A stretch of 32,727 nucleotides of DNA, from IMG/VR virus record IMGVR_UViG_3300029260_000266, positions 1 to 32,727 of that record; one strand, written 5' to 3'. This document shows positions 6,796 to 26,524 of the stretch, piece by piece; the first letter of the stretch is position 1, and every line of letters starts with the position of its first letter. The notes under the pieces were generated by a model. It made no database searches. It was not told the DNA's origin and worked only from the letters and a program-made list of their open reading frames with translations. Origin of the DNA: a virus. The position numbers were made by a program, and so were the translations under genes.

Positions 6796-7326
6796 ATGGC
6801 TAAAAAGAATCACTATATTGATAACAAAGAATTTTTCAAGCATATGTGTGAATGGAAAGAAGCTCTAATTGAAGCTGAAAATGCAGGAGAACCTAAGGCA
6901 CCAATATCAAATTATATTGGGAAATGCTTTATAGACATTGCAGAACATTTAGCACAGAAACCAAACTTTACAAATTATCCTTACAAGGATGAGATGATTA
7001 ACGACTCGATTGAGAATTGTGTGATGTATGCCCACAATTTTAATCCAGAAAAGTCTAAGAATCCTTTCTCATATTTTACACAGATAATTTATTACGCTTT
7101 TCTTCGTAGAATAGAAAAAGAGAAGAAGCAGAATTTCATCAAGTTTAAACTAGCTGAAATGAAAGATGATGGTACGATGAGTACATGGTACAAAGAGAAT
7201 TACTTTGATCGTGATTCAATGAAAGATGCCATGAAAGAACATTTTAATCTTTCTGATGATGATGTAAAAAGAATGCAGCCTAAAAAGAAAGCAAAGAAAG
7301 AATCAGACGGAAAACTATTTGAATGA
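6796..7326 (+). CDS. 55: Late-transcription sigma factor (gp55)
   Basis: The 176-residue product is the highly diverged sigma-70-family subunit that directs host RNA polymerase to late promoters. Its layout follows T4 gp55: HYIDNKEFFKHMCEWK at the start, a region-2 core with MINDSIENCVMYAHNF and KSKNPFSYFTQIIYYAF, then RRIEKEKKQ. T4 gp55 ends in a short sliding-clamp-binding peptide; here the chain ends in GKLFE, a plausible minimal version. ATG 6796 was chosen over GTG 6766 because a promoter -10 element overlaps the earlier codons and GAAAG sits 8 bases before the ATG. It overlaps gene 47 by ATGA. Confidence 0.93.
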   Translation: MAKKNHYIDNKEFFKHMCEWKEALIEAENAGEPKAPISNYIGKCFIDIAEHLAQKPNFTNYPYKDEMINDSIENCVMYAHNFNPEKSKNPFSYFTQIIYYAFLRRIEKEKKQNFIKFKLAEMKDDGTMSTWYKENYFDRDSMKDAMKEHFNLSDDDVKRMQPKKKAKKESDGKLFE

Positions 7327-8378
7327 AAGTAGCTGTCATCAATGATACGCACTTTGGTGCAAGAAACGACTCCTCTATTTTTCTGGACCATTTTTTAGAA
7401 TTTTTCGAGGATCAGTTTTTTCCATACTGCGAAGAAAATAATATTGATCAGGTTCTCCATCTAGGTGATCTGATGGATCGTCGTAAGTACGTCAACTTCA
7501 ATACACTACACGAAGTCAGGAAACGATTCTTTCAGAAATTTGACGAGAATAAAATTCACGTACATTGTATTGTAGGAAACCACGATACTTTCTACAAGAA
7601 CACCAATGAAGTAAATTCTATAAAGGAACTCTTTGTTGACAGAAACGATTACTTTCACTTGTATGAAGAACCAACGGCAGTTAACTTTGGTTCTCTCTGC
7701 GTTGGTCTAGTTCCATGGATTGCAGATGAAAACCGAGATGAGTGTGAAGAGTTTCTTCGTACTTGTCCGTGTCCAATTATTGGTGGTCACTTTGAACTAA
7801 ATGGTTATGAGATTATGCGCGGAGTGAAGTTCCAGCATGGAATGTCTGACAAACTACTTCAGAGGTTCGAGACTGTGATGTCTGGACACTTTCATAGCAA
7901 GAGCAGTAAAAACAATGTACGATACTTAGGCACTCAATACCAGATAACATTTAGTGATCTGAAAGACAAGAAAGGATTTCATGTTCTCGATACAGAAACA
8001 CGAGAGCTAGAATTCGTAGAAAACAAACGCCGTAAGTTCCATCACATTGATTATGATGACACGAATCCTGATGCGTTAGTTGAACTTGATTTCAGTTTTT
8101 ATAAAGACTGCTACGTCAAGATAATCATAAAGAACAAGACAAAGAGAAAATTGTTTGATGCTTTTCTCGATACCTTGTACAAACATAAAGTCATTGACAT
8201 AACTGTTGTCGAAGACATGAGTGATTTCGAAATTGAAGAGACATCGATAGACATGGCTAAAGATACTCTATCGATTATTAATGATGAAATTGATACAGAC
8301 TCAGAGATAAAGGACAAGGATCAAATTAAGAAAATAATTCGTGACCTGTATCTCGAAGGTCTTAGTAACTGGGAATAA
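7323..8378 (+). CDS. 47: Recombination nuclease subunit gp47 (Mre11-like)
   Basis: The 351-residue product is the nuclease partner of gp46 and resects double-strand ends for recombination-dependent replication and host DNA breakdown. Calcineurin-type phosphodiesterase motifs appear in order: NDTH (7-10), GDLMDRR (48-54), GNHD (85-88), GGHFE (154-158) and SGHFHS (187-192). T4 gp47 has 339 residues. The gene overlaps 55 by 4 bases and leads straight into 46, so the two subunits are translationally coupled. Confidence 0.96.
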   Translation: MKVAVINDTHFGARNDSSIFLDHFLEFFEDQFFPYCEENNIDQVLHLGDLMDRRKYVNFNTLHEVRKRFFQKFDENKIHVHCIVGNHDTFYKNTNEVNSIKELFVDRNDYFHLYEEPTAVNFGSLCVGLVPWIADENRDECEEFLRTCPCPIIGGHFELNGYEIMRGVKFQHGMSDKLLQRFETVMSGHFHSKSSKNNVRYLGTQYQITFSDLKDKKGFHVLDTETRELEFVENKRRKFHHIDYDDTNPDALVELDFSFYKDCYVKIIIKNKTKRKLFDAFLDTLYKHKVIDITVVEDMSDFEIEETSIDMAKDTLSIINDEIDTDSEIKDKDQIKKIIRDLYLEGLSNWE

Positions 8379-8379
8379 T

Positions 8380-10095
8380 ATGTTAACTTTTGATAAGGTT
8401 CGTTTTAAAAACTTTGGTTCGTTTGGTAATACCTTTACAGAGCTTGAATTGGGTAAGTATAATACTGTACTTGTTTCTGGTAGAAATGGTCATGGTAAAT
8501 CGTTTGCTCTGCTTGACGCTATCACATTTGCTTTGTTTGGTAAGCCTTTCCGGAAGGTTAATGTACCACAGCTTGTAAATAGTGTTAATCAAAAAGACTG
8601 TGTTACCGAGGTATATTTCAGCACACCTAAACATAATTACAAAGTTATCCGTGGTATTAGTCCGAAGGTCTTTGAGATCTATAAAGATGGTGATTTACTC
8701 CCACAACCCGCAAAAGCTAAAGATTACCAGAAACTACTCGAAGAACAAATTTTAAGAATGAACTATAAGTCATTCACTCAGATTGTTATCTTGGGTTCTT
8801 CTTCGTTTATTCCTTTTATGCAACTGAGCACAACTGATCGACGTGAAGTTATTGAAGATATTCTTGATATTAAAATCTTTAGTGTCATGAACTCATTACT
8901 CAAGACCAAGATATCTGAACTCAAAGAGTCATTGAATATTTGTCAAGGTAAAATTGATATTGCAAATGAAAAGATTCAATTGCAGGAAGGTCATGTCAAC
9001 ACTCTTAAAACACGAAGTCAGGAACGACTAGAGAAAAACAAAGATAAGTTGAATTCACTTATAGACGAAGGTAAAGATACACAGAGTAAAATTTCTGATG
9101 TTACTAGTGAGATTGAAGATATCAAAAACAAGCTACCTGATAAATCTCAGTTTGTAACTAGCCTTAAGGGAATTGAAAAGGCTGAAAATTCTCTAGAGTC
9201 TGATCTAAAAAGATTGGTGAAGGATATTACATTCTATACATCGAACGATACATGTCCTAGCTGCAAACAGAATATCAATGATGATTTTAGAAACTCCATT
9301 ACGACTGAGAAAGAATCAGAAAAACTAAACATCGAAGAGCGACTTGTTGGTACAGAGTCTTTAATTAAAGAGACCCTTGATAGAATCAATCAGATAGAGG
9401 ATAAAGAACGGGGTATTGTTCGGAGGGAACGGGGTATTGCTGAAAAGCAGAGTCTCGTCAAATCTCTATACGAACAGATACAGTACATTGAGCAAGAAAT
9501 TCGTGAGATTGAAACCAATCAAGAAAACATCGAAGAGCAGAATGATAAGCTAAACGATTTCCGAAATGATAAAGAGACTTCTCTGAATGAGAAAGAGTCT
9601 GTTCTCAATGAGAAGTACAATTATGATGTTGTGCACGATCTATTAAAGGATGGTGGAATTAAATCTAAGATCATCAAGTACTATTTACCGATCATCAATA
9701 AACTCATCAACAAGTACCTGTCTTCTATGAATTTCTTTGCCAACTTTACTCTTGATGAGGAGTTCAATGAAACAATCAAAAGCCGACACCGAGACACGTT
9801 TAGTTACATGAGCTTCAGTGAAGGTGAAAAACTTAGAATTGATCTTGCGTTAATTCTATCATGGAGAGAGATTGCCAAGCTAAAGAACAGTGCAAGCTGC
9901 AACCTACTAATTTTAGATGAAGTCTTTGATTCGTCACTTGATGCGATGGGTACAGATGATTTGATGAAATTACTTGACGATCTCTCAATTAATGCTAATA
10001 TATTTGTAATCAGTCATAAAGCAGATCTTCTTGCAGATAAGTTTAGTAATTATATGGTATTTGAAAAGAAAAATAATTTCAGTAGAATAAAATAA
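8380..10095 (+). CDS. 46: Recombination ATPase subunit gp46 (Rad50-like)
   Basis: The 571-residue SMC-type ATPase forms the gp46-gp47 end-processing complex. Walker A GRNGHGKS is at 34-41, a zinc-hook CPSC at 292-295 divides two coiled-coil arms rich in Glu, Lys and Leu, the ABC signature FSEGEK is near 479-484, and Walker B LLILDEVFD at about 509-517. T4 gp46 has 560 residues. The start is ATG 8380, one base after the gene 47 stop, since it yields the typical N-terminus MLTFDKVRFKNFGSFG and has GGGAA upstream. An earlier in-frame GTG at 8341 lies inside gene 47 and adds an untypical extension. Confidence 0.96.
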   Translation: MLTFDKVRFKNFGSFGNTFTELELGKYNTVLVSGRNGHGKSFALLDAITFALFGKPFRKVNVPQLVNSVNQKDCVTEVYFSTPKHNYKVIRGISPKVFEIYKDGDLLPQPAKAKDYQKLLEEQILRMNYKSFTQIVILGSSSFIPFMQLSTTDRREVIEDILDIKIFSVMNSLLKTKISELKESLNICQGKIDIANEKIQLQEGHVNTLKTRSQERLEKNKDKLNSLIDEGKDTQSKISDVTSEIEDIKNKLPDKSQFVTSLKGIEKAENSLESDLKRLVKDITFYTSNDTCPSCKQNINDDFRNSITTEKESEKLNIEERLVGTESLIKETLDRINQIEDKERGIVRRERGIAEKQSLVKSLYEQIQYIEQEIREIETNQENIEEQNDKLNDFRNDKETSLNEKESVLNEKYNYDVVHDLLKDGGIKSKIIKYYLPIINKLINKYLSSMNFFANFTLDEEFNETIKSRHRDTFSYMSFSEGEKLRIDLALILSWREIAKLKNSASCNLLILDEVFDSSLDAMGTDDLMKLLDDLSINANIFVISHKADLLADKFSNYMVFEKKNNFSRIK

Positions 10096-10866
10096 ATGAT
10101 ACAACTTTTTGATGATACAGCCGAAAAATATTTGTCACTGATTGATGGCTGGGAAGACAGTCTTCCCTCACCAGTAATCGAAGAACACGAAGGAATACAA
10201 GTTGTTCGTGATGATCTTCTTGGTGGTGGATCAAAGATACGATTTGCAGATTATTTAATACAAAGTCAACCGGAGATAGAAGAATGGGTATATGGGAGTT
10301 CTCCCGCAACTGGGTACGCACAGATTTCTCTTTCGTACTTATGCCGCAAATATGGTAAGAAAGCAGTCATCTTTATGGCTGCACGAGCATGGGACAAGTT
10401 GCACGATTATCAAATAGAAGCACTAAAGGTAGGTGCTGATATGAGATGGGTTCCGAATGGTATGCTGTCAGTGACAGAGAAAAGAGCAAGAGATTATGTT
10501 GGAAAAAATGCAAAGATTCGTAAACTACTTCCTATTGGTTTTCACCATGACACTGTTATCGCTTCTATTATTAGGGTTGCTTTATCAATCGATGTTCGAC
10601 CTAACGAAGTATGGAGTGTTGGGTCCAGTGGGACTCTCACCCGAGGTCTACAACTCGCATGGCCAGATGCGGACTTCCATTGCGTTACTGTTGGACACAA
10701 AGGAGACTACGGAAGAGCCAAAATCTACGAATGTAACATCCCCTTCAACAAACCCGCAAAGGTAATACCCCCGTTTCCCTCTGCAATCACGTATGATGCA
10801 AAGGCGTGGGAATATATAAAACAACATGCTTCACCCGGAGCACTTTTTTGGAATGTAGGAGCTTAA
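10096..10866 (+). CDS. Small fold-type II PLP-dependent enzyme (deaminase/desulfhydrase-like)
   Basis: The 256-residue product resembles the tryptophan-synthase-beta fold enzymes such as ACC deaminase and D-cysteine desulfhydrase. VVRDDLLGGGSKIRF (37-50) matches the block around the PLP-binding lysine, here Lys47. GSSPATGYAQ (67-76) corresponds to the substrate loop (SNHAR in ACC deaminase), and VGSSGTLTRGL (175-185) to the Gly-rich phosphate-binding loop. It is much shorter than cellular relatives (320-340 residues). It follows gene 46 directly and abuts glutamine synthetase with no gap, so the two are probably co-translated. An enzyme releasing ammonia from an amino acid would fit this pairing, but substrate and activity are inferred. 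Confidence 0.65.
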   Translation: MIQLFDDTAEKYLSLIDGWEDSLPSPVIEEHEGIQVVRDDLLGGGSKIRFADYLIQSQPEIEEWVYGSSPATGYAQISLSYLCRKYGKKAVIFMAARAWDKLHDYQIEALKVGADMRWVPNGMLSVTEKRARDYVGKNAKIRKLLPIGFHHDTVIASIIRVALSIDVRPNEVWSVGSSGTLTRGLQLAWPDADFHCVTVGHKGDYGRAKIYECNIPFNKPAKVIPPFPSAITYDAKAWEYIKQHASPGALFWNVGA

Positions 10867-11928
10867 ATGTATAAACTTGATTATGTGTGGCTAGACGGAT
10901 ACGAAACTAAAAATATGCGAATGAAGACTCGCTATTATAATGGATATGAACTTGATATCACTGATGTACCCGTGTGGGGATTTGATGGATCTAGTACAGA
11001 TCAAGCAGAAGGTAAGAACAGTGATTGTATTCTTGAGCCAGTAAAGCTCTATAGGGATGCATCAGATCCCATGGGTATGACCCACATCGTTCTATGTGAG
11101 GTTATGAACCCAGATGGAACTCCACACGAATCTAATACACGAGCAAAGATGCGTCAGATCATCGAAGACTGTGGTGGTCTTGATAAGGTCAGTAAAGATA
11201 TGATGTTCGGTATTGAACAGGAGTACGTTATCTTCGACAAGAAGACTGGTCGTCCTAGTGGGTGGCCAGACAACGGATTCCCTCCACCACAGGGTAGATA
11301 TTACTGTGGTGTCGGTGGTGATTGTGTCGAGCATCAAGATTTGATTGATGAACATGCTTCAATTTGTAATCGAGCTGGGATTCCTATTCAAGGAACTAAT
11401 GCCGAAGTAATGCTCTCACAATGGGAATATCAGGTTGGACCATCAAATGCTCTAGATGTGTGTGATCATCTTTGGGTTGCAAGATATATTATGGAAAAGA
11501 TTGCTACAAAACAAAACTTGTACATTCGTCTTGATCCTAAACCAATCCCCGGTGATTGGAATGGTTCTGGTGCTCATATCAACTTCTCCAGTAAGTTTAT
11601 GCGTGAAGATGCAACAATTGATCTACTACAGGAAATGTGTGCATCTCTTGGTAAATTTAAAGGTGAGATGCTTTCTAAATATGGCAATGACAATCAGCTT
11701 CGCCTTACTGGTAAACATGAGACTGCCCATATTGATGATTATAATTGGGGAGTTTCTGATAGAGGGGCTTCTATTCGTATTCCTTCTTCTACTGCAACTA
11801 AGGGTAAAGGTCATCTAGAGGATAGACGACCAGCGGCAAATATAGATCCATATGAGGCAGTAGCTGCTATAACCAAATATGTGGATATTGTCGAAAAACA
11901 AGTTGCACAACCATCGCTATTCGTGTAA
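10867..11928 (+). CDS. glnII: Glutamine synthetase, eukaryotic-type GSII
   Basis: The 353-residue enzyme would make glutamine from glutamate, ammonia and ATP. It is the GSII class: WGFDGSSTDQAEG (37-49), metal ligands in GIEQEY (115-120), EVMLSQWEYQVGP (180-192), GDWNGSGAH (229-237, with His237), RLTGKHETA (279-287), WGVSDRGASIRIP (294-306) and EDRRPAAN (318-325). The length fits GSII (330-375) rather than the 470-residue GSI. All major active-site blocks are intact, so it looks functional. It lies between the PLP enzyme and a DNA methyltransferase, amid phage replication genes. Such a gene in a phage is an auxiliary metabolic gene, presumably boosting nitrogen assimilation during infection. 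Confidence 0.95.
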   Translation: MYKLDYVWLDGYETKNMRMKTRYYNGYELDITDVPVWGFDGSSTDQAEGKNSDCILEPVKLYRDASDPMGMTHIVLCEVMNPDGTPHESNTRAKMRQIIEDCGGLDKVSKDMMFGIEQEYVIFDKKTGRPSGWPDNGFPPPQGRYYCGVGGDCVEHQDLIDEHASICNRAGIPIQGTNAEVMLSQWEYQVGPSNALDVCDHLWVARYIMEKIATKQNLYIRLDPKPIPGDWNGSGAHINFSSKFMREDATIDLLQEMCASLGKFKGEMLSKYGNDNQLRLTGKHETAHIDDYNWGVSDRGASIRIPSSTATKGKGHLEDRRPAANIDPYEAVAAITKYVDIVEKQVAQPSLFV

Positions 11929-11940
11929 AATATAAGTATC

Positions 11941-13521
11941 ATGAAAAGGTTCTACGAACGTAATAATTATATTATTGACAGTGATGTCAATGTGATGTTT
12001 GAAGATCTCTTAGAAATGACCCCCGATAGGTTCGAGGAATGGGTTATCCGTATGCGTGTTACTCTTACGGAGGCGTGGGACGCACACGGATGCCCTCCTC
12101 GAACGGGGAAGAATAAACAAGAAATTATAGATTCCTTTAATCGTCTGGGTGAATATCCTGTTCATCAGTTTACACACTCAGATGAATTGTCTGATGTCAA
12201 GGACGACATCATCATGAATAAATCTCGTGCTGGTGTTGAAGTCGATCAGTGGTTTTCCAACATGTTCAAAACGAGAATTAATTATAATGAAAACGATGAC
12301 GGATATTCTATATACGATTTGGTTGCTAATGATGATTATCTCGGGCGTGTTGTACGTGGTTCTGCTCGTCATCTCAGACGGGATTCTTTCTATAGTCACG
12401 CAACTTCGGCAATCAAGCATAGTAAAAAACATTCAATTGTGGATGTTGGGTCTGCTGAAGAATGGTTGAAAGTATACTTTGAAAACCCAGAACCCTTCAA
12501 GGGTTATGACTTTATGATCGAAGAGGTCAAGAAACGTGATGGGTTGAGTAGTAGCTATAATCAGTTGGAGCAATCTGACATCCTACAGTTAACAAAGGAT
12601 CAACTTGATGAGTGGAGAGCTAAGTTATCTTACCGACACCACTCTACGTTTGATATAAACAATACAACAGATGAGAAACTATATGCGATTAGGATCTACA
12701 AGAAAGGTAATCATGTATTCCCTGCTGGGTTTAAATCTTTTAGAATTGGTTACATACAGCCTGCTGTAAACTTTCCTCCGATGACGGCTAAATACCTATA
12801 CGAGAGGTTTACTAATGACATTAAATCACAAGAGACCATCAAGATCTTTGACCCTAGTTCAGGTTGGGGTGGTAGAATTCTTGGGGCTATGTCTTGTCGT
12901 GATGATAGGAATATTATTTATCTTGGTACTGATCCCAATCCTGATAATTTCTTCGATGATGGTAGTTCTAAATATTCTTCTGTCGCTGATTTTTACAACA
13001 CTGAAACATATCGGTCTAACCCTTTCTTCAGTTCTACAAATAACTACGAAATCTATCAGCTAGGTTCTGAAGAAATACAGCATGACAATAACTTCCAGAA
13101 GCACAAAGGATCTGTTGATCTTATATTCACTTCCCCACCATATTTCAACAGGGAAGCCTATAGCGAAGATGAAAATCAATCGTATAAAAAGTATGGTTCT
13201 TCTTATGATTCATGGAGAGATGGATTTCTTCGACCAACTTTGAAAACTTGTGTTGACTGGCTCAAGGATGACAGGTATCTTCTATGGAACATTGCTGATA
13301 TTAAAATGAAAGATGTATATCTTCCATTAGAAGAAGATTCAAAAAATATTCTCGAAGAATATGGAATGGTATATAAATATACATTGAAAATGGCAATGGA
13401 ATCTATGCCGGGTCAAAATCGAGTAGATGAGAACGGTATACCAAAGTGTAAGAATTTCTGTAAAGTAAAAGGACGATTTTTAAAGTACGAACCAGTGTTC
13501 GTCTTCTGGAAACCAAAATGA
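11941..13521 (+). CDS. DNA amino-methyltransferase with long N-terminal region
   Basis: The 526-residue product carries the SAM-binding motif I FDPSSGWGGRILGAM (from Phe303) and, about 95 residues later, the catalytic motif IV TSPPYFNREAYS (SPPY at 398-401) of N4-cytosine/N6-adenine methyltransferases. The N-terminal 300 residues show no motif I recognise and could hold a target-recognition or second domain; ARHLRRDSF and KLSYRHHSTFD are the notable stretches. No restriction partner is adjacent, so it is probably a solitary enzyme protecting or marking phage DNA. The start is ATG 12 bases after the glutamine synthetase stop. It overlaps the next gene by ATGA. Confidence 0.85.
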   Translation: MKRFYERNNYIIDSDVNVMFEDLLEMTPDRFEEWVIRMRVTLTEAWDAHGCPPRTGKNKQEIIDSFNRLGEYPVHQFTHSDELSDVKDDIIMNKSRAGVEVDQWFSNMFKTRINYNENDDGYSIYDLVANDDYLGRVVRGSARHLRRDSFYSHATSAIKHSKKHSIVDVGSAEEWLKVYFENPEPFKGYDFMIEEVKKRDGLSSSYNQLEQSDILQLTKDQLDEWRAKLSYRHHSTFDINNTTDEKLYAIRIYKKGNHVFPAGFKSFRIGYIQPAVNFPPMTAKYLYERFTNDIKSQETIKIFDPSSGWGGRILGAMSCRDDRNIIYLGTDPNPDNFFDDGSSKYSSVADFYNTETYRSNPFFSSTNNYEIYQLGSEEIQHDNNFQKHKGSVDLIFTSPPYFNREAYSEDENQSYKKYGSSYDSWRDGFLRPTLKTCVDWLKDDRYLLWNIADIKMKDVYLPLEEDSKNILEEYGMVYKYTLKMAMESMPGQNRVDENGIPKCKNFCKVKGRFLKYEPVFVFWKPK

Positions 13522-14201
13522 TTTCTGAAACCGCATGTATCCTAGAAGCGTGGATCGATGAATATATCGATGCACTCCAGAGTAATTCTAATATTGCTCG
13601 TAAAAATGTAAAAACTCTTATTACAGCAAATAGAGTTAAACCAAGAGAAGCAAAAAAAATAGCAGAGCATTTTCAAAGACTTTTAGATGAAGTCAACTCT
13701 GTACTTGATGAGACCGATGAAGATCTACTTGAAGGTTGGTCCTACTTGAACCAAACAAAGATCAAGAGACTTCATGGATATCTGGAAACTATTGTTGATG
13801 AGTTTAAAATTAAGGGAACTGTCACTCGTAGAAAGAAAAAGATTTCCCCCCAACAAATGGTGAAATCAGTGAAATATCTTACTGATCATAAAAATTTTGG
13901 TAATAGCATTTCTCCTGATAATATCATTGGTGCAAAGGGAGTTCTTCTATTCAACACTAAGCAGAAAAAGATTGCATATTATGAGTCTGAAAGGGGCTTT
14001 ACTGTTAAAGGTACTACCCTACAGGGTGTTGATGGTGGTGTTGTTAAGAGTTGTGGTAGAAAAGACTCAAAGTGGATTGGTTCTCTGATTGGTTGCCATA
14101 TTAATAGAATGATGAATGAAATAAATACTTTGTCTTCTAAGGAACAGGAACTAACCGGGCGTATCAATAAAGATACACTGATTCTAAGAATAGTAAAATG
14201 A
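13518..14201 (+). CDS. Conserved phage protein of unknown function
   Basis: The 227-residue product is mostly helical in its first half (EAWIDEYIDALQ, AKKIAEHFQRLLDEV). A basic hinge follows (TRRKKKISPQQMVKSVKYL), then a beta-rich second half with GAKGVLLFNTKQKKIAYY and FTVKGTTLQGVD. The second half resembles a domain shared by uncharacterised proteins of marine T4-like phages. No catalytic motif is visible. ATGA overlaps at both ends place it in one unit with the methyltransferase and the next small gene. Function unknown. Confidence 0.7.
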   Translation: MISETACILEAWIDEYIDALQSNSNIARKNVKTLITANRVKPREAKKIAEHFQRLLDEVNSVLDETDEDLLEGWSYLNQTKIKRLHGYLETIVDEFKIKGTVTRRKKKISPQQMVKSVKYLTDHKNFGNSISPDNIIGAKGVLLFNTKQKKIAYYESERGFTVKGTTLQGVDGGVVKSCGRKDSKWIGSLIGCHINRMMNEINTLSSKEQELTGRINKDTLILRIVK

Positions 14202-14544: not shown

Positions 14545-14736
14545 ATGGAAAACAAAAGAAATAGGAAGAAGACCAAAAATCCCTATGAAAAGGAATATGA
14601 GCCGAAAATTAAATTGTCTCATAAGTCCAAAAAATCAAAAAGAGGCTCATCAAAAGAGCACCTTAAAAATGTATCGAAAGGAAATATTGATTATGATGAC
14701 TATATGGAAATGGAAGATTGGAGTGACTCTCGGTGA
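14545..14736 (+). CDS. Small basic protein upstream of the sliding clamp
   Basis: This 63-residue protein is very rich in Lys, Arg and Ser (RNRKKTKNPYEKEYEP, then LSHKSKKSKRGSSKEH) and ends in an acidic tail (DYDDYMEMEDWSDSR). It has no hydrophobic core and is probably disordered or nucleic-acid-binding. Its stop overlaps the GTG start of gene 45 (GTGA), so translation of the two is likely coupled. Function unknown; the charge pattern alone does not decide it. Confidence 0.6.
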   Translation: MENKRNRKKTKNPYEKEYEPKIKLSHKSKKSKRGSSKEHLKNVSKGNIDYDDYMEMEDWSDSR

Positions 14737-15404
14737 AATTCAGTAAGAATACATTTGAAATCCTTAAGAACTTTTCTAATATCAACTCAAACATTCTAAT
14801 TAAGCCCGGTAACAAACTTTGCACGATTACTCCTGCAAAGAACGTTATGGCTGAAGCAGAAGTTGAGGAAGATTTTGTAACGGAGTTCGGTATCTGGGAC
14901 TTGTCTAAGTTCCTTGGGACCATCTCGTTGTTTGATGATCCTGAATTTGAGTTCAGTGAAAAGTATGTGTTGATTCGCAGTGCTACTGGTTCTTGTGTCA
15001 AGTATTACTATTCGGAGCCTTCATTGTTGACTGTTCCTACTAGAAAACTTGATATGCCTAGTGTTGCGGTATCTTTTAATCTTCCACACTCAGTGTTCCA
15101 TGAGATTCTACGAGCAGCTTCTGTATTGCAGCTTCCAGATCTTGCGATTCGTTCTGATGGTTCAAATATTATTGCCGTAGTCTTCGACAAGACTGAACCA
15201 ACTTGCAATGATTATTCAATTGAGCTTGGCTTGAATGAATCAGGTGCAGAGTTTGATTTCCACTTTAAGATCGAGAACTTTAAGTTTATCCCCGGTGATT
15301 ATCAGGTCGATATCACCGAGAAGGTTGTGAGTCAGTTCACCAGTAAGTCTGGTGGAGTGAAGTATTGGGTTGCACTTGAGGCTTCTAGTAAGTACAGTGG
15401 GTAA
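14733..15404 (+). CDS. 45: DNA polymerase sliding clamp (gp45)
   Basis: The 223-residue product (T4 gp45: 228) is the trimeric ring that tethers the polymerase and, with gp55, activates late transcription. The start MKFSKNTFEILKNFSNIN parallels T4 gp45, and the end matches the family (GGVKYWVALEASSKY). The start codon is GTG, with GGAG at 14720-14723 and a 4-base overlap with the preceding mini-gene. It is followed by gene 44 after two bases, the conserved clamp/clamp-loader order. Confidence 0.95.
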   Translation: MKFSKNTFEILKNFSNINSNILIKPGNKLCTITPAKNVMAEAEVEEDFVTEFGIWDLSKFLGTISLFDDPEFEFSEKYVLIRSATGSCVKYYYSEPSLLTVPTRKLDMPSVAVSFNLPHSVFHEILRAASVLQLPDLAIRSDGSNIIAVVFDKTEPTCNDYSIELGLNESGAEFDFHFKIENFKFIPGDYQVDITEKVVSQFTSKSGGVKYWVALEASSKYSG

Positions 15405-15406
15405 TT

Positions 15407-16339
15407 ATGCAAGGTCTATTGGTAGAGAAGTATCGTCCTGCGACGATTGATGATTGTGTTTTGCCTATCTCCCTAAAGGAGACATTCAAGGATATTGTCA
15501 GCAGTGGAGAATGTCAGAACCTGCTCCTAACAGGGGGAGCGGGTTGTGGAAAGACGAGTGTTGCTCGTGCTCTATGTAATGAGCTTGACGCAGACAGTAT
15601 TCTAATTAACTGTTCTGAGGATGGTAACATCGATACACTCAGAACAAAGATTAGAACCTTTGCGAGTACTGTATCAATCAGTGGTAACAAGAAAGTTGTT
15701 ATCCTTGATGAGTTTGATTACAGTAATGCAAACAGTATTCAGCCTGCTCTTCGTGGTGCAATTGAAGAATTTGCAAACAACTGTAGATTTATTATTACGT
15801 GTAACTATAAGAATCGGATTATTTCACCGATTCATTCTCGTTGCACTAATATTGAATTTGCGATTCCATCAGAAGAGAAGCCGGCTCTTGCGGGTCAGTT
15901 CATGCAGAGAGTCAAGAAAATCCTTGATAAGGAAGCTATTCCATACGAGGATAAAATTCTAGCTCAACTCATTACAAAGTATTTCCCTGATTTCCGTCGA
16001 GTTCTTAATGAGCTTCAGCGGTACTCAGTAGCTGGAATTATTGACATCGGGATTCTTTCTCAGATTGGTGAAGTGCAGGTCAAGGAGCTTGCAGTTGCCA
16101 TGAAGAGTAAGAATTTCACAGAAGTCAGGAAGTGGGTTGTCTCAAATCTAGATAATTCACAGACAGAGTTGTTCCGAAAGATTTATGATGGTCTACATGA
16201 TTATGTTACACCGACATCTATCCCACAGGCAATTCTGATCCTAGCAGATTATCAACACAAAGCAGCATTTGTTGCAGATCAAGAAATTAATTTGACTGCA
16301 TGTATTGTTGAGCTTATGATGGAGTGTGAATTTAAATGA
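15407..16339 (+). CDS. 44: Clamp loader large subunit (gp44)
   Basis: The 310-residue AAA+ ATPase (T4 gp44: 319) forms the motor of the clamp loader with gp62. It starts with VEKYRPATIDDCVLP, has Walker A GGAGCGKT (43-50), Walker B VVILDEFD (97-104), a sensor region with FIITCNYKN, and an SRC motif (HSRCTNIEF). The C-terminal collar domain resembles T4 (PDFRRVLNELQRYS). It overlaps the next gene by ATGA. That next gene is a sulfotransferase rather than gene 62, an unusual break in the 45-44-62 block. Confidence 0.96.
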   Translation: MQGLLVEKYRPATIDDCVLPISLKETFKDIVSSGECQNLLLTGGAGCGKTSVARALCNELDADSILINCSEDGNIDTLRTKIRTFASTVSISGNKKVVILDEFDYSNANSIQPALRGAIEEFANNCRFIITCNYKNRIISPIHSRCTNIEFAIPSEEKPALAGQFMQRVKKILDKEAIPYEDKILAQLITKYFPDFRRVLNELQRYSVAGIIDIGILSQIGEVQVKELAVAMKSKNFTEVRKWVVSNLDNSQTELFRKIYDGLHDYVTPTSIPQAILILADYQHKAAFVADQEINLTACIVELMMECEFK

Positions 16340-16914: not shown

Positions 16915-17210
16915 GTAAATTTAAAGCGTATGGTGACTGGGTTGCCGTGAAGACAGTATTCAAGGAAGAGCACACTACTGAAGCTGGTATTGTGTACAAG
17001 GAAGATTTGCCTGACAACATGATGACTTGGAGTGAAGTCGTTTCTGTTGGAGAGCTTGTAGAAACCCACTACGATATCAATCCCGGTGATCATGTCCTTT
17101 GGAAGTATGGTTCAGACCCCGGCGCATATTATAAGAATGCTGATGATTCATTGGATCTTGTTCGGGTTCACAATCTCTTGGCGGTAAGGACTCCTGATGA
17201 AGTTGGGTGA
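16911..17210 (+). CDS. GroES/Cpn10-like co-chaperonin (gp31 analogue)
   Basis: The 99-residue product has the length and strand pattern of Cpn10: FKAYGDWVAVKTVFKEEH (roof-proximal first strand with the VAVK block), EAGIVYKEDLPDNM (mobile-loop region), WSEVVSVGE, then INPGDHVLWKYG, and a last LVRVHNLLAVR that matches the usual DILAV end. T4 encodes gp31, which replaces GroES on GroEL so that gp23 can fold. This protein looks closer to cellular Cpn10 than to gp31. It overlaps the sulfotransferase by ATGA and gene 62 by 14 bases. Confidence 0.8.
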   Translation: MSKFKAYGDWVAVKTVFKEEHTTEAGIVYKEDLPDNMMTWSEVVSVGELVETHYDINPGDHVLWKYGSDPGAYYKNADDSLDLVRVHNLLAVRTPDEVG

Positions 17211-17583
17211 ATACTTAACAGCAATCAATTATTCAAAGGAACCCCTTCTCGACACCGAAGATGAAAGTGTCGAGAAGGGGTATACCCCTTTTATAGTAAA
17301 CAGGTGTTTATCTTATTTTATGGACACGGTTCTCTATGCAAATGAGATGAACATGAGACCTGAAACCGGTAAGAAAATGCAGTTTGATTATTTACAGAAG
17401 TCTATCCGAAAAAATAAGAGATATAGTAAGTGGCTCAAGCAGGAATCGGTAGAAAATTTAGATACCATTAAGCAATTTTATGGTTATTCTGATACCAAAG
17501 CAAAGGAAGTAATGGACATTTTGAGTGATGATGATATCCAATTCATGCGTGATAAGCTCAACACAGGGGGTGTGGGCAAGTAA
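17197..17583 (+). CDS. 62: Clamp loader small subunit (gp62)
   Basis: The 128-residue product is shorter than T4 gp62 (187) but matches the short form of marine T4-like phages: GEYLTAINYSKEPLL, then PFIVNRCLSYFMDTVLYANEMN, a basic KSIRKNKRYSKWLK, and a C-terminal SDTKAKEVMDILSDDDI. Together with gp44 it loads gp45. Position before regA fits T4 order. Its early codons (residues 15-32) are folded into a perfect 15-pair hairpin and an overlapping palindrome, which may control translation or transcription. The start lies inside the Cpn10 gene. Confidence 0.88.
   Translation: MKLGEYLTAINYSKEPLLDTEDESVEKGYTPFIVNRCLSYFMDTVLYANEMNMRPETGKKMQFDYLQKSIRKNKRYSKWLKQESVENLDTIKQFYGYSDTKAKEVMDILSDDDIQFMRDKLNTGGVGK
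17241..17290 (+). promoter_or_regulatory. Two overlapping, mutually exclusive hairpins within gene 62
   Basis: ACCCCTTCTCGACAC (17241-17255) is the exact reverse complement of 17267-17281, forming a perfect 15-pair stem with an 11-base loop. The right arm also belongs to a second perfect palindrome, AAGGGGTATACCCCTT (17275-17290), a six-pair stem followed by TTTAT-like sequence. The two RNA folds cannot coexist, an antiterminator/terminator-like geometry. It begins 45 bases after the gene 62 start. Regulatory function is inferred. Confidence 0.6.
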
Positions 17584-17628: not shown

Positions 17629-18024
17629 ATGGAAGATATATTTAATAATTTGGGAGTAGAAATTACTTTCAAAGACAAAGATGATTTTTTAAAAATTAGA
17701 GAAACTCTTACCCGTATGGGAGTTTCGTCTAGAAAAGAAAATAAGTTGTTTCAATCATGTCATATTCTGCACAAGAGAGGTAGATATGTAATATTACACT
17801 TCAAAGAATTGTTTATATTGGATGGATTAGAATCTGATATTTCTGACAGTGATATTGCTAGAAGAAATACTATAGTTAATCTTCTTGACGAATGGGGTTT
17901 ACTTGATATATTAGATATAGACTCTTGTCAAGAACCAAAGGCAAGTCTTGGTCAAATAAAAATTATTCCGCATAGGGATAAAGAGGATTGGGAACTAATT
18001 CCAAAATACCATATAGGTAAGTAA
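17629..18024 (+). CDS. regA: RegA translational repressor
   Basis: The 131-residue product (T4 RegA: 122) binds start regions of many early mRNAs, including clamp and clamp-loader messages, and blocks their translation. The resemblance is strong throughout: KDDFLKIRETLTRMGVSS, FQSCHILHKRGRYVILHFKE, a central LLDEWGLLDIL and the end WELIPKYHIGK. It follows gene 62 as in T4. It marks the right border of the conserved replication cluster; the glycan island starts two bases later. Confidence 0.97.
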   Translation: MEDIFNNLGVEITFKDKDDFLKIRETLTRMGVSSRKENKLFQSCHILHKRGRYVILHFKELFILDGLESDISDSDIARRNTIVNLLDEWGLLDILDIDSCQEPKASLGQIKIIPHRDKEDWELIPKYHIGK

Positions 18025-18026
18025 TA

Positions 18027-18680
18027 ATGAATTTAAAAGTGATCAGTTATTATTGTGATGTAGACGAGTCAAAGTATTACGAAAAATCTTATCATCGATT
18101 AAAAGAACAGCTAGACACCTATGGCTATGATTATCACATTGAAAAATTGGATAGTCTTGGTTCTTATAAAGAGAATTGTAGGAGAAAAGTGGACTTCATT
18201 ATTGATAAGTTCAGGCAGTTTGATTCTAATATTCTGTGGCTCGATGTAGACACAATTCTTCTTAAAAGGATGAACCGTCTGGAGGAATTGAATAATGACG
18301 GAGCACAGCCAGTTGATATTCTTTTTGCTTCACCTATACATGACATATCTGGTATAAAAGCCTCCCCCATTTGGTTTAAAAATAATTCAAAAAGTAGGTA
18401 CTTTCTGAAGAGTTGGAAAGCTGAAGTTGATAAAAGTAGGAGAGAAGGTCAGGAAAACTTTGATCACGAGGTCATGTTTAACAGCGTAATTAATGGTCAT
18501 AAATATTGTACATTTGGTATGCTAGGATATGAGTATTGTACGTGGCCGGGTGACTCAAATAAAGATACTGTAATTGAGATGGGACTTTCAGATGTTGATT
18601 CGAAAAAAGACTCTCTCAGAAAAATGGGTTTTGATGAAGGTAAAATAGAATGGCAAAGTGTAGGTTTAAATAATGAGTGA
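18027..18680 (+). CDS. Nucleotide-diphospho-sugar transferase-like glycosyltransferase
   Basis: The 217-residue product looks like a small GT-A fold enzyme. The hydrophobic strand plus DxD motif ILWLDVDTILLK (near residues 69-80) is the metal and nucleotide-sugar site, and a later acidic block (GQENFDHEVMFNSVI) may supply acceptor or catalytic residues. The N-terminal LKVISYYCDVDESKYYE fits the first strand of the fold. It is the first gene of the glycan island, two bases after regA, with no promoter of its own visible. Donor and acceptor are unknown. Confidence 0.7.
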   Translation: MNLKVISYYCDVDESKYYEKSYHRLKEQLDTYGYDYHIEKLDSLGSYKENCRRKVDFIIDKFRQFDSNILWLDVDTILLKRMNRLEELNNDGAQPVDILFASPIHDISGIKASPIWFKNNSKSRYFLKSWKAEVDKSRREGQENFDHEVMFNSVINGHKYCTFGMLGYEYCTWPGDSNKDTVIEMGLSDVDSKKDSLRKMGFDEGKIEWQSVGLNNE

Positions 18681-19509
18681 AAAAATTATGTGTCTGGGTG
18701 AGCCTTTTTATTATGAGCATTCATCCTGCTCGGATTTGACACCCGAAAGTTTTAATTGGACAAGAGACTCTAACGAAACAGATACAGTTGTTTGTATTGA
18801 CAATGCAATCATAGGTATGTTTGATAGCGAAGAGCTTCCTGATAAAAAGTTTGCTTGGGTATCAGAATCTCCAGTAGTTGTGCCAAAAGTATATGAATTT
18901 GTACATGAAAACTATGAAGTTTTACTTGATTACTATGCAGCAATCTGTACCTGCGATTTAGATCTAGTATCTAAACATGAAAGAATTCATCTTGTTCCAT
19001 CATCAAGTAATCTTCCTTGGGTCAAAGAGTTTGAGATCTACGAGAAGACTAAGAATGTTTCTATGGTTGCATCCAATAAAACCTTTACAGAGGGTCAGCA
19101 ACTGCGTCACACGCTTGCCGAGAAGTATAAAGGACATCTAGATGTAATGGGATCAATAAATGGTGATCGTATTGGATCTTCTCTTTTCGATAAGCTTGAT
19201 GGATATAAAGACTACAGGTTTACACTTGTCACTGAAAACTGTAAACTTGATTCTACGATCTATTTCACAGAGAAGATAACTGATGCCTTTGCAACAGGAA
19301 CTATTCCCGTGTACTGGGGAACTGATGAAATTTATAATTACTTTAACGGAGATGGTATAATTAAATTGACCGATAATTTTGATATTAGTCAACTTACACC
19401 AGAACTCTATGAACAAAAACTTGACGCTATCAGGGATAACTTTGAGCGTGTGAAAAAACTAAGGATGGTTGATGATGAAGTCTACGATGTCTTGCAAGCC
19501 TACAAATAA
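18673..19509 (+). CDS. GT10-type (fucosyltransferase-like) glycosyltransferase
   Basis: The 278-residue product has the C-terminal signature of family GT10 alpha-1,3/1,4-fucosyltransferases at about 180-232: YRFTLVTEN, YFTEKITDAFATGTIPVYWG and YFNGDGIIKL. This is a GT-B fold donor domain that binds a GDP-sugar. The N-terminal half is short and variable, as is usual for acceptor domains. GDP-sugar use agrees with the two Gmd genes downstream. It overlaps neighbours on both sides (8 and about 38 bases). Confidence 0.85.
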   Translation: MSEKIMCLGEPFYYEHSSCSDLTPESFNWTRDSNETDTVVCIDNAIIGMFDSEELPDKKFAWVSESPVVVPKVYEFVHENYEVLLDYYAAICTCDLDLVSKHERIHLVPSSSNLPWVKEFEIYEKTKNVSMVASNKTFTEGQQLRHTLAEKYKGHLDVMGSINGDRIGSSLFDKLDGYKDYRFTLVTENCKLDSTIYFTEKITDAFATGTIPVYWGTDEIYNYFNGDGIIKLTDNFDISQLTPELYEQKLDAIRDNFERVKKLRMVDDEVYDVLQAYK

Positions 19510-20347
19510 AAATGGTGACTACTTATTTGATTCTACTGTAGAATTTGATTTTCCTGTAGAACTACATTTTGTTCGTATTGAAGAGTTTGATAATTCTGAT
19601 GCATATAAGGTTCTAATTCTTTCGAGTGAAAATGCTAAGTCTCCGAATCGAGAGACAATTCCATCTGTAATCGCCAATCATAAAAAATATGATTTGATTC
19701 TATGTGATGATGATAAGATTGTTGAAGCTTGTCCAAATGCTACACTTTTTCCGTATGGTTCTACTTGGCTGAACCGAGGAAAGATTAATCATCCAGATGG
19801 TCTGGGCTACTTTGATCCAGAGGTTGAGATCTTCAAGAAGAGAGACCGAACTCTTAATGATGTTAGTTTTTTGGCTTCTTGGTATAATATCGAACGAGCG
19901 GGATACTACACTCGACGAGAGGTCTGGAAAAGACAGGAAGAAATTGAAATCCCCAAGATGTTCTTCACAAGCAGGAAGTCATTTTTAGATGCACCCAATC
20001 CACTTCCTACCGGAGAGAAAGAAGATCTTTTCCACTCAATGTTCCACATCTGTGTTGAGAACCAACGGATTAGGAACCACTTTGGTGAAAAGTTAATTGA
20101 TCCAATTATCACATATACTGTGCCAATTTATTGTGGATGTCCAAACATTGGAGACTTCTTTGATGTTCGTGGTATGATTCTCTTCGATACTGTCGATGAC
20201 TTAATTCCTAAAATTAATGCCTTGACTATGGAGAGTTATGATGATATGATGGAGTATGTTGAAAAGAATCGTAAGATTGCAGAGTCTTATGTTAATTTCA
20301 GTGAACGGATTAAGGAAGTCATATGCCAAAAAGCCCCGAAAACATAA
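19472..20347 (+). CDS. Second GT10-like glycosyltransferase
   Basis: The 291-residue product carries a diverged version of the same GT10 block as its upstream neighbour: FHICVENQRIRNHFGEKLID, then TVPIYCGCPNIGDFFD and GMILFD. An earlier region has VSFLASWYNIERAGYYTRRE, typical of the hinge before the donor domain. AAGGA (19461-19465) precedes two ATG codons at 19472 and 19475. The first is used here, and either would overlap the upstream gene. Two consecutive GT10-like genes suggest paralogues acting in succession on one glycan. Confidence 0.75.
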   Translation: MMKSTMSCKPTNKNGDYLFDSTVEFDFPVELHFVRIEEFDNSDAYKVLILSSENAKSPNRETIPSVIANHKKYDLILCDDDKIVEACPNATLFPYGSTWLNRGKINHPDGLGYFDPEVEIFKKRDRTLNDVSFLASWYNIERAGYYTRREVWKRQEEIEIPKMFFTSRKSFLDAPNPLPTGEKEDLFHSMFHICVENQRIRNHFGEKLIDPIITYTVPIYCGCPNIGDFFDVRGMILFDTVDDLIPKINALTMESYDDMMEYVEKNRKIAESYVNFSERIKEVICQKAPKT

Positions 20348-20943
20348 AGCTATCTATTCTTATTTTATCGATCCCATCGAGAATCAAACAATTAGAGGCG
20401 TTACTGGAAAAACTAGAGAATCAGTTCGATGATGATCGAGTAGAGATTCTTGTTATGTTGGACAACAAGTCCTTTCATATCTACGAGAAGAGAAATGAAC
20501 TACTCAATATGGCGCGAGGAGAATATCTTTGCTTCCTTGACGATGATGACAACGTTGCTGATAACTACATCCCATCAATCTTAGATGTTCTTGATAATGA
20601 GACACCAGATGTTATCTGCTTCAAACAACATTGCAATTATAATGGTGCAGAATTTGACGTTGTGTTTGATATTGACCACAACTGGGATCCAATGGATCAG
20701 TTACAGTTTAACGGAGTAGGGTTCAATGATCTGAATAGACCACCCTTTCACATGTGTCCGTGGAAAAGTGAAATCGCAAAAGCTGAAAAGTTCACAGAAA
20801 ATTATGATGCGCAAGGGCAGTCATGTGAGGACTCTGATTGGTTACTGAGGCTTTATCCTCAAGTCAAAGAACAGATCTTCATTGATGATTGTCTTCATTA
20901 CTATCATTATTCATCGGAAGGTACGGAGTCAATATTAAAATGA
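20323..20943 (+). CDS. Family 2 (GT-A) glycosyltransferase
   Basis: The 206-residue product matches the GT2 fold: LSILILSIPSRIKQLEALLEKL, then RNELLNMARGEYLCFLDDDDNV with the Asp-rich DxD metal site near residues 73-76, and CEDSDWLLRLY where GT2 enzymes carry the ED catalytic-base motif. It is shorter than many GT2 enzymes (250+), lacking a membrane segment, so it is likely soluble. Overlaps its neighbours by 25 and 4 bases. Confidence 0.85.
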   Translation: MPKSPENIKLSILILSIPSRIKQLEALLEKLENQFDDDRVEILVMLDNKSFHIYEKRNELLNMARGEYLCFLDDDDNVADNYIPSILDVLDNETPDVICFKQHCNYNGAEFDVVFDIDHNWDPMDQLQFNGVGFNDLNRPPFHMCPWKSEIAKAEKFTENYDAQGQSCEDSDWLLRLYPQVKEQIFIDDCLHYYHYSSEGTESILK

Positions 20944-21620
20944 AATTGATAACGTTTTCTCTTTGGGGTAACGATCCACTGTATACTATAGGTGCTATTA
21001 GAAATGTGGAGATAGCAAAGGAGCTTTTTCCTGAATGGATTTGTAGATTCTATATTGCAAACTCTGTTCCAGATGATATATGTAAAAAGCTACGAGAACT
21101 TGGTGCTGAGTTGATTTCTAGAAGTGATCCGGGTAGCACTAATTCTATGTTCTGGAGATTTGAACCTGCCGCATTTTCAGATGTTGACGCGATGATTGTT
21201 CGAGATACAGATTCTCGGTTAGGTATCAGAGAAAAACTTGCTGTTGATGAGTGGTTAGATTCTGGTAAGAAACTACACATCATGAGAGATCACCCATACC
21301 ATCAAGTCCCCATGTTGGGTGGTATGTGGGGATGTCGTCCAGTGCTTATGGATAATTTGTTTGATAAGATTAATCAACACATTAAATCTAATCCCGATGA
21401 GAAGGGTTCAGATCAGCATTTCCTTTGGTCACAAGTTTTCCCTGAGCTTCATGAAGACTCATTCATACATGATCCATTCTTCGATAAGAAACCTTTTCCT
21501 ATTGAACGTGATGCCGATCCTGTTGTGAAATTTATCGGGCAGGTTTTTGATGAGAATGATAATTACGCTGGTAACTGGGAAAGTGATTTAGCTATATTGG
21601 GTGAATATTGTGCTAGATGA
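20940..21620 (+). CDS. Putative glycosyltransferase with DxD-like motif
   Basis: The start MKLITFSLWGNDPLYTIGAI at ATG 20940 overlaps the upstream stop (ATGA) and gives 226 residues. FWRFEPAAFSDVDAMIVRDTDSRLGI holds a strand-plus-Asp motif (RDTD) like the nucleotide-sugar site of GT-A enzymes. HIMRDHPYHQVPMLGGMWGCR is a distinctive His/Gly stretch recurring in uncharacterised proteins of glycan clusters. I do not recognise a named family with certainty; context favours sugar transfer. Confidence 0.65.
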   Translation: MKLITFSLWGNDPLYTIGAIRNVEIAKELFPEWICRFYIANSVPDDICKKLRELGAELISRSDPGSTNSMFWRFEPAAFSDVDAMIVRDTDSRLGIREKLAVDEWLDSGKKLHIMRDHPYHQVPMLGGMWGCRPVLMDNLFDKINQHIKSNPDEKGSDQHFLWSQVFPELHEDSFIHDPFFDKKPFPIERDADPVVKFIGQVFDENDNYAGNWESDLAILGEYCAR

Positions 21621-22452
21621 TAAACTAATTTTCTATAACTGGATGCCTTGTATTGCTGACTGGTCGATGGATTGCACTGATGAATTCTATCGATCAAATT
21701 CTGTTTCACGTATATGTAATCCTCCCGATCTTACCGAGAACACGATAAATGATGTCAAAGAGAATGATATTATTTTTGTGAAAACAGATTACCTTAAAAA
21801 TAATTACTTTCAGACAGAAGTATTACCTCGTATAAAAGTTCCGTTCAAGTTAGTCAGTGGAATATCTTCTTACACTGTAGATAATTACCAACCAATTATT
21901 GACAATAAATTGTGTACAAAATGGTTCTGCACAAATCCACCCATTGGACATAGAAAGATTGTGGGTATTCCTATTGGCTTTGAGGAAAAGGAACGAGCCG
22001 GTGGTGATCAGGAACTTCTCAAGAAATATTTAAACCAAGAAAATGTAGAGAAGAAGAATAAAATTATATTACCATATCACACACAGTCAACAAACCCTGT
22101 GAGATCTGCTGCGATAGAGTTTCTGTCTTCACTTCCCTATGTTGATGTTCAGCAGGATAAGTTAGACTTTGATGATTACATGCAGTTGTTGTCCGAGTAT
22201 AAATATTGTATCTGTCTAGAGGGGGCTGGGTATGATACACACAGAAATTACGAATGTTTGTTGACGGGAACAGTTCCTATTATGAAGAAGAGTAATCTGA
22301 GATCAATTTATATCGACTGGAAGCTACCCAGCATGTTTATAGAAGAATGGGAATCTGTAGCAGATATAGGTCTGGATGCATCATTCGATTTTTCTACCGT
22401 AGATAAATTTATGCAGGTTCAATCCCACATAGAAAGAATTAAGAATGTCTGA
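21601..22452 (+). CDS. Exostosin/GT47-like glycosyltransferase
   Basis: The 283-residue product has a C-terminal block of the exostosin type: LLSEYKYCICLEGAGYDTHRN, then YECLLTGTVPIMKKS, the donor-binding part of a GT-B enzyme (near residues 198-228). An earlier KWFCTNPPIGHRKIVGIPIG occurs in related phage and bacterial proteins. The start is uncertain: GTG 21601 gives the longest form, while GTG 21610 has GGGTGA six bases upstream and would begin MLDDKLIFYNW. Either overlaps the preceding gene. Confidence 0.7.
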   Translation: MNIVLDDKLIFYNWMPCIADWSMDCTDEFYRSNSVSRICNPPDLTENTINDVKENDIIFVKTDYLKNNYFQTEVLPRIKVPFKLVSGISSYTVDNYQPIIDNKLCTKWFCTNPPIGHRKIVGIPIGFEEKERAGGDQELLKKYLNQENVEKKNKIILPYHTQSTNPVRSAAIEFLSSLPYVDVQQDKLDFDDYMQLLSEYKYCICLEGAGYDTHRNYECLLTGTVPIMKKSNLRSIYIDWKLPSMFIEEWESVADIGLDASFDFSTVDKFMQVQSHIERIKNV

Positions 22453-23134
22453 TATAGTAATACACCACCATCTCGGATTGGGTGATCATATTGATTGTAA
22501 TGGTATGGTTAGGTATTTTGCAGACTTGTATGAGGGTGACACCATTCACACTTTTGCAAAGAAGCAATACTTTGATATGATTGAGTGGATGTATCGAGAT
22601 GACGATCATATCAAAGTGCATCGGATTGATGGTAATGAATATTCTGGTGTGTATGAATTCATGACTGAAAACAATTTTACATCAGAAGATCTTTATATTG
22701 TAGGGCATGGGAATTATCCACCAAATCCGTCACCCGATAAAAACTGTTGGGAATATTTCTATGAGCAGCTAGATTTTGATCTAGACATAAAGCAAGATTT
22801 GTTTTATGTTGAGCCAGATGAAGATGAAGAGAAGAGAGTATTTGATAAATTGAATCCCACTGGAGAGGACTACATATTTGTTCATGATGATCCATCTAGA
22901 GGGTTTGAGATTACTGTGGAAAATGATCTAAAGGTCATACGGAATGATGTGAGTGAAAACATTTTTAATTTTACACAAATTATTAATAATGCAAAAGAGA
23001 TACATCTAATGGAAAGTTCATTCAAATCCATGGTGGAACATTATCCAACTGACGGTAAATTGTTCTTCCATGATTTTAGAGAACACCCACTAGGAAAACA
23101 TGAAAAGGATTGGACAGTGATTAACTATGAGTGA
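22445..23134 (+). CDS. Glycan-cluster protein, possibly GT-B (heptosyltransferase-like)
   Basis: The 229-residue product opens with IVIHHHLGLGDHIDCNGMVRYFADLY. The Gly-Leu-Gly-Asp turn followed by a helix is reminiscent of the N-terminus of GT9-type heptosyltransferases, in which this loop faces the acceptor. A later YIFVHDDPSRGFEI and HLMESSFKSMVEHYP resemble the donor half of the same fold. No complete family signature is seen, so the assignment is weak. Overlaps both neighbours by 8 bases. Confidence 0.5.
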   Translation: MSDIVIHHHLGLGDHIDCNGMVRYFADLYEGDTIHTFAKKQYFDMIEWMYRDDDHIKVHRIDGNEYSGVYEFMTENNFTSEDLYIVGHGNYPPNPSPDKNCWEYFYEQLDFDLDIKQDLFYVEPDEDEEKRVFDKLNPTGEDYIFVHDDPSRGFEITVENDLKVIRNDVSENIFNFTQIINNAKEIHLMESSFKSMVEHYPTDGKLFFHDFREHPLGKHEKDWTVINYE

Positions 23135-23897
23135 TTTGACAGAACTTGGTCTTAAGTATGGTACTGATAAAAGTGAGAATGGGTACACTCGTATCTACGA
23201 AGAATTTTTATCTGATAAAAGAAATGAAAAGAATAATCTTTTAGAGATTGGTGTCTGGAGAGGATCCTCTCTTAGAATGTGGTCTGAATATTTTCCTAAC
23301 TCTTTTGTTCTGGGGATGGATATTCCACATGAGATGTACCCAGAAAGTATTTTCCCATATCATGACTATGAAGCAAGAAACAATTTAATTAATTCAATTG
23401 AAAATTCTGCTTTATTTTTGGGTGATCAAGCCAATCCAGAGCACTTGGATGCAATGTTTACAATGATAAATGAAGTCACCGGAAGAGAGTCTGTAGACAT
23501 TGTTGTTGATGATGGGTCACATTTTCAACATGATATTATGAAAAGCTTTGCGAACATATTCCCTAGACTTTCTTCTGGTGGAATCTATATCATTGAAGAT
23601 ATCTGTCGATTAGAAGATCTAAAAACTGGTTCAATGTGGTGGGGTCACAGTAAAGAACCACACCACCATAGACCAAATTTTAGACCTGATTCTGAGTGGC
23701 TTGGTAGTGATGAAATTGATTTTGATAATTCTGTTGATGCAACCATTCAGCGTGTTCTTGATGAGGATGAGTTTTCTAGTAAGTTCATGAATGAAGAGCA
23801 GAACGCTTATATTAATCAGTACGTTGACACTATAAATTATTATGGTGAAGATGATCTTTGGTGTGAGAGTAACATAGCGGTTATAAGGAAAAAATAA
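23127..23897 (+). CDS. SAM-dependent methyltransferase (sugar O-methyltransferase-like)
   Basis: The 256-residue product is a class I methyltransferase: LGLKYGTDKSENGYTRIYEEFL leads into motif I LLEIGVWRGSSLRMW (about 39-53), an acidic GMDI after the second strand, and VDIVVDDGSHFQHDI with GGIYIIEDI. This set is typical of macrolide-sugar and related O-methyltransferases (macrocin O-methyltransferase-like, Methyltransf_24). In a glycan island it probably caps or decorates a sugar hydroxyl. The His-rich stretch HSKEPHHHRP may bind metal. Confidence 0.85.
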   Translation: MSDLTELGLKYGTDKSENGYTRIYEEFLSDKRNEKNNLLEIGVWRGSSLRMWSEYFPNSFVLGMDIPHEMYPESIFPYHDYEARNNLINSIENSALFLGDQANPEHLDAMFTMINEVTGRESVDIVVDDGSHFQHDIMKSFANIFPRLSSGGIYIIEDICRLEDLKTGSMWWGHSKEPHHHRPNFRPDSEWLGSDEIDFDNSVDATIQRVLDEDEFSSKFMNEEQNAYINQYVDTINYYGEDDLWCESNIAVIRKK

Positions 23898-25368: not shown

Positions 25369-25377
25369 GGATTTATT

Positions 25378-26511: not shown

Positions 26512-26524
26512 TAAGGATTTTATA

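Follow-up and report, generated by a model that had tools for sequence, protein, structure and literature searches.

Genes for glutamine synthetase (GS) have repeatedly been reported from phages and viromes, and therefore the finding described here is not new in kind. Virus-borne GS has been read as part of nitrogen metabolism in passages of reports on ocean viromes (PMC9083009), Antarctic SAR86 viruses (PMC10721903), moraphages (PMC12619734), and jumbo phages (PMC13037316). The Global Ocean Sampling survey of 2007 found abundant divergent marine type II GS in unexpectedly high number, which was left unexplained, and listed GS among the families with abundant new viral additions (PMC1821046). 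A second system for comparison is the CmoA/CmoX/CmoY carboxymethylcytosine system of the marine phage S-B43, in which a methylase gene lies beside a gene for an ATP-dependent enzyme that forms amide bonds (PMC12783734). The locus studied here likewise combines the gene for a class II glutamine synthetase (GSII) with that of a putative DNA methyltransferase (MT). It is located on a linear 32.7-kb IMG/VR virus record, the whole of which (32,727 nt) was analyzed and is called the window (Table 1).

Table 1. Features of the window and, in the last line, of related contigs.
Feature	Position	Strand	Description
gp47 (SbcD-like)	7323..8378	+	phrog_100
gp46 (SbcC-like)	8341..10095	+	phrog_77
PALP	10096..10866	+	Small PLP-enzyme-fold protein, 256 aa, threonine/ACC-deaminase-like; phrog_7093, alignment, AlphaFold2, Foldseek
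AGGAG	10855..10859	+	Likely GS ribosome-binding site, inside the PALP end, five bases before the GS ATG
GS (GSII)	10867..11928	+	Class II glutamine synthetase, 353 aa, complete, ATG to TAA, no internal stop
MT	11941..13521	+	526 aa, C-terminal N6/N4-type DNA methyltransferase domain (DPSSGWGGR ... TSPPY); PF01555 E 1.2e-8
Protein without assigned function	13518..14201	+	Often beside MT; phrog_11903
gp45 sliding clamp	14733..15404	+	phrog_223
gp44 clamp loader	15407..16339	+	phrog_168
gp62	17197-17583
regA	17629-18024
GS with CGWC/CGTP extension	L014, L016-L019, L021-L030, L032, L033, L035, L040, L041, L047

Class assignment, active site, and position in the phage genome

The GS protein contains both Pfam domains of the family (Gln-synt_C, E 1.1e-21; Gln-synt_N, E 7e-10). 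The top PDB matches in a phmmer search were 16 GSII entries (E 1e-95 to 1e-88), and the other GS classes in the PDB reached E 6e-15 or worse. With about 350 residues, a beta-grasp N-terminal domain, and a catalytic C-terminal domain it is nearer to GSII than to GSI or GSIII. The best NCBIfam model was the GlnII equivalog, and the score of 380 bits was 120 bits short of its cut-off of 500. Therefore, GS clearly belongs to the GSII class, but lies outside of the curated GlnII group, and the score fits a presumably divergent subfamily.

Fourteen residues are invariant in an alignment of 26 phage GS, namely, D40, S43, E117, E119, Y146, E180, E187, H237, R279, E285, R299, R304, E318, and R320. We take them to be the equivalents of D63, S66, E134, E136, Y162, E196, E203, H253, R299, E305, R319, R324, E338, and R340 of human GS, respectively; the matching was done by motif and includes every catalytic residue that could be placed. 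The residues of the metal, ATP, glutamate, and ammonium sites, assigned by motif, are thus conserved in all 26 phage proteins. Judged from the dN/dS values of about 0.06-0.12 within the subclade of the window (0.07-0.12 between the window and relatives), purifying selection on GS is strong. The gene and its neighbors are similar in GC content (0.41 for GS), and the third-position GC of GS (0.29) was the lowest among the genes compared, to which no meaning is attached.

The window contains the T4-like core set, i.e., gp21 (protease), gp22 (scaffold), gp23 (capsid), gp44 and gp62 (loader), gp45, gp46, gp47, gp55 (sigma), and regA, and further T4-like genes for a tail tube, UvsY, and a helicase. 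The initial annotation of a complete GSII gene in a T4-like phage is in agreement with these results. It had also placed the gene between gp46 and the replisome genes. This holds for the interval from gp46 to gp45/gp44, which comprises PALP, GS, MT, and smaller genes, but the direct neighbors are PALP and MT, with the start codon of GS immediately after the stop codon of PALP. Neither tRNAs nor Rfam elements were found in the window. Downstream of regA (18027-32179) follows a long run of glycosyltransferase genes together with genes for two DegT-type aminotransferases and two GDP-mannose-dehydratase-like enzymes, and this sugar-making cluster could itself consume nitrogen from glutamine or glutamate.

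The GS protein scan matched 48 viral loci. The gene order of the window is repeated in the contigs L003, L009, and L042 and, more distantly, in L004-L008; because the arrangement recurs in at least three other contigs, a chimeric join at GS is unlikely. In eight relatives that are at least 76% identical GS directly follows PALP, and MT comes next wherever the contig goes on. Together with the strong purifying selection and the near confinement of the viral GS to one phage clade (see below), this supports the claim that GS is a stable phage gene.

A phage clade of GSII, its motif, and an N-terminal extension

The GS tree was calculated with 85 rows, i.e., 32 phage GS and bacterial, huge-phage, and eukaryotic sequences, the last being a small sample of two. 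A single clade (SH-aLRT 99) holds 31 of the 32 phage GS and is separated from bacteria, huge phages, and eukaryotes. The GS of L048 has a long branch and was placed elsewhere; its grouping with the other phage GS was not rejected (AU p 0.5). The best cellular matches are only about 50-52% identical, and neither a eukaryotic nor a recent bacterial donor is supported by the tree. The class given in the initial annotation, which had termed the enzyme "eukaryotic-type", is correct, but the two eukaryotic GSII are apart from the phage clade and no sign of a eukaryotic origin was found, so that the term is a family label only. The donor lineage that phylogeny was expected to reveal did not emerge, and none seems to be visible among the sampled sequences. 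A GSII clade confined to phages would be among the less expected parts of the finding.

All 48 phage GS that cover the site have the motif MLSQWEY, which is absent from 80 of 80 bacterial GS. The phage set was collected partly by this very motif, and therefore its restriction to phages is suggested but not proven. MLSQWEY adjoins the catalytic glutamates and could signal an altered specificity; together with the GlnII score below the cut-off, this was counted against a working GS. One form of altered specificity would be that of a gamma-glutamyl ligase, in which a modified GSII fold couples glutamate to an amine in place of ammonia. GS-fold ligases with other acceptors exist, and the model for gamma-glutamylputrescine synthetase matches GS at 5e-10. 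However, the match of GS to GSII is far better than that to such families, and the ammonium-site residues D40, S43, Y146, and E285 are all invariant, which makes a gamma-glutamyl ligase highly improbable.

In 21 phage GS, the window GS not being one of them, the N terminus is extended by about 110 aa that contain the motifs CGWC and CGTP (Table 1). Pfam yielded thioredoxin/glutaredoxin matches below threshold only, and based on the motifs and this weak profile support the extension is likely to be thioredoxin-like. One change on the GS tree accounts for it, in agreement with a single gain, and it was not found among the bacterial GS examined. The likely fusion with a redox domain is another less expected part of the finding, and it suggests a redox coupling of the viral GS.

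PALP, MT, and the variable neighborhood of GS

The candidate PLP lysine of PALP, K47, is invariant in the alignment, the AlphaFold2 model has a pLDDT of 88, and Foldseek matched the fold to a threonine deaminase and an ACC deaminase homolog. PALP might thus be an ammonia-releasing deaminase of the threonine/serine type that feeds GS, and the pair, encoded by abutting genes, would recycle amino-acid nitrogen into glutamine. Yet real deaminases are longer than PALP by about 60-80 residues, and PALP shares only 13-16% identity with them. Furthermore, among the best 80 MT loci it occurs mostly with MT and without GS, and most phage GS are found without PALP. The synonymous divergence between the window and L003 is also very different for the two genes (dS 0.15 for PALP and 0.88 for GS). 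The far lower value for the same genome pair indicates that PALP has probably been exchanged recently, and that the two genes do not travel together. We therefore regard a deaminase-GS couple as quite improbable. The dN/dS values of PALP between the window and relatives are 0.16-0.37.

MT is highly conserved, and hundreds of T4-like phage contigs, marine and others, have it between gp46 and gp45. An alignment of 21 sequences has a mean column identity of 72% and an invariant TSPPY, which differs from the SPPC of C5-methyltransferases. The MT model was of moderate confidence and matched SAM-methyltransferase folds, no known family matched the first 270 residues, and for MT PADLOC gave no more than weak methyltransferase matches. 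A PDB sequence search gave no significant match for either PALP or MT. With at least 540 confirmed loci MT is far commoner than GS. Among the best 80 of these loci 37 have neither PALP nor GS, 25 have PALP only, 14 have GS only, and four have both; these counts refer to the stretch shown at each locus and include near-copies and truncated contigs.

Could the three neighbors have a common task? PALP, GS, and MT abut in the window and in relatives, the MT-GS pair is present in many further phages, in two of which (L043, L049) it is preceded by a PALP homolog, and in many loci MT directly follows PALP. They might represent an undescribed phage DNA hypermodification module, in which MT would add a group to a base, PALP would supply or edit an amino-acid-like group, and GS would act as an ATP-dependent amide ligase or as a dedicated local maker of glutamine, the nitrogen donor, in analogy to CmoX and the ligase CmoY of phage S-B43. 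Carboxymethylation of phage DNA with subsequent amide ligation has been established for another system (PMC12783734). In Erythrobacter phage ZS04, a ParB-methylase protein has an inserted domain with 44% identity to PALP, and in a Microcystis phage PALP adjoins ParB and methylase genes. The ZS04 protein (L051:2326-4764) consists of a ParB domain and a DNA methylase that is split in two, with a PALP domain between the methylase motifs, and its architecture suggests PLP-dependent DNA modification chemistry. Open-licence papers yielded nothing specific about phage GSII or PLP-ParB-methylase proteins.

The fusion of PALP into a methylase prompted the idea that GS also takes part in DNA modification, but several observations speak against this. 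The PALP-bearing methylase of ZS04 has little similarity to MT (E 2e-4 over 65 aa), most occurrences of MT and PALP lack a neighboring GS, and CmoA carboxy-SAM synthase and asparagine-synthetase-like ligases were not found in 18 and 17 records, respectively, many of them fragments. The GSII active site of GS is complete, with its ammonium pocket retained. In addition, whole-contig searches revealed that GS is distant from MT in G005, G020, and G022, and MT was not detected in the GS-bearing 102-kb contig G006 and in some shorter GS-bearing contigs. In L010 and L044 GS is located between a primase-like gene (labeled by eye) and ThyX, followed by ribonucleotide reductase, and in L255 it is flanked by a B-family DNA polymerase and a RecA-type gene, with a dUTPase close by. 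The position of GS in related phages is thus not fixed, and at least four different places were found, which also weakens an obligate GS-MT module. Because GS keeps the ordinary residues and has other company, hypermodification is a better fit for PALP and MT than for GS, and for the three genes together it appears unlikely.

Two further genes of GS-carrying phages were observed. A hydrophobic protein that looks transporter-like by eye is encoded between a primase-like gene and ThyX (L255:462-1406, minus strand) and has no match in Pfam and NCBIfam. The phage of L010 encodes a Lyase_1 protein between gp47 and gp46 (L257:1847-3304, plus strand), which resembles adenylosuccinate lyase of purine synthesis. 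The cyanophage marker psbA was present in none of 17 contigs.

Probable glutamine supply and comparison with known systems

We conclude that GS is probably an auxiliary metabolic gene of the phage, which encodes an active GSII that would supply glutamine, mainly for nucleotide synthesis. Enzymatic activity is suggested by the full active site, the low dN/dS values, and the occurrence in one phage clade. The use for nucleotides, already proposed in the initial annotation, is plausible, as relatives have GS beside ThyX, ribonucleotide reductase, primase, and DNA polymerase, in one case near dUTPase. The GS-bearing contigs without detected MT, including that of 102 kb, and the Lyase_1 protein in the phage of L010 also argue for a supply of glutamine, whereas the adjacency of GS and MT in most T4-like relatives retrieved was counted against it.

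For the phage GS we infer enzymatic activity, a decamer, its timing, a benefit for the phage, and the destination of the glutamine. During infection, decamers of the protein would form glutamine from glutamate, ammonia, and ATP via gamma-glutamyl phosphate, and the raised supply would enter the synthesis of purines, CTP, and amino sugars while the phage DNA is copied. Class I glutamine amidotransferases were found in none of the 17 contigs searched, and asparagine synthetase was equally absent from 17 records other than the window, many of them fragments; the sink for the glutamine would therefore be host enzymes. GSII, unlike GSI, has no adenylylation control, and the phage enzyme might be insensitive to host controls that are aimed at GSI. 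In the ocean survey of 2007 Tyr397 of GSI was often found to be replaced (PMC1821046). If the phage GS is active, a group of marine T4-like phages would control the entry step of nitrogen assimilation.

The closest relatives with known structures are the GlnII enzymes of bacteria and eukaryotes (e.g., PDB 4bax of Streptomyces and 7cpr of Drosophila), with which the phage GS shares the length, the two domains, and all catalytic motifs (E of about 1e-95). However, cellular GlnII have a motif of the MPGQWEF type in place of MLSQWEY, and the phage proteins are at best about 50% identical to them, form a separate clade, and score below the equivalog cut-off. The S-B43 system differs from the window in that its ligase CmoY is asparagine-synthetase-like and its methylase CmoX is a C5 enzyme with SPPC (PMC12783734), in contrast to a GSII and an SPPY enzyme. 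In the passages concerned, the reports on virus-borne GS cited above (PMC9083009, PMC10721903, PMC12619734, PMC13037316) do not state the GS class, and none describes the T4-like GS clade, the MT/PALP neighborhood, or the thioredoxin-like fusion. The Global Ocean Sampling survey put type II GS mostly on bacterial scaffolds (PMC1821046), whereas in the window GSII is linked with core genes of a T4-like phage, and the phage-only clade could explain a part of the high number of type II GS in that survey.
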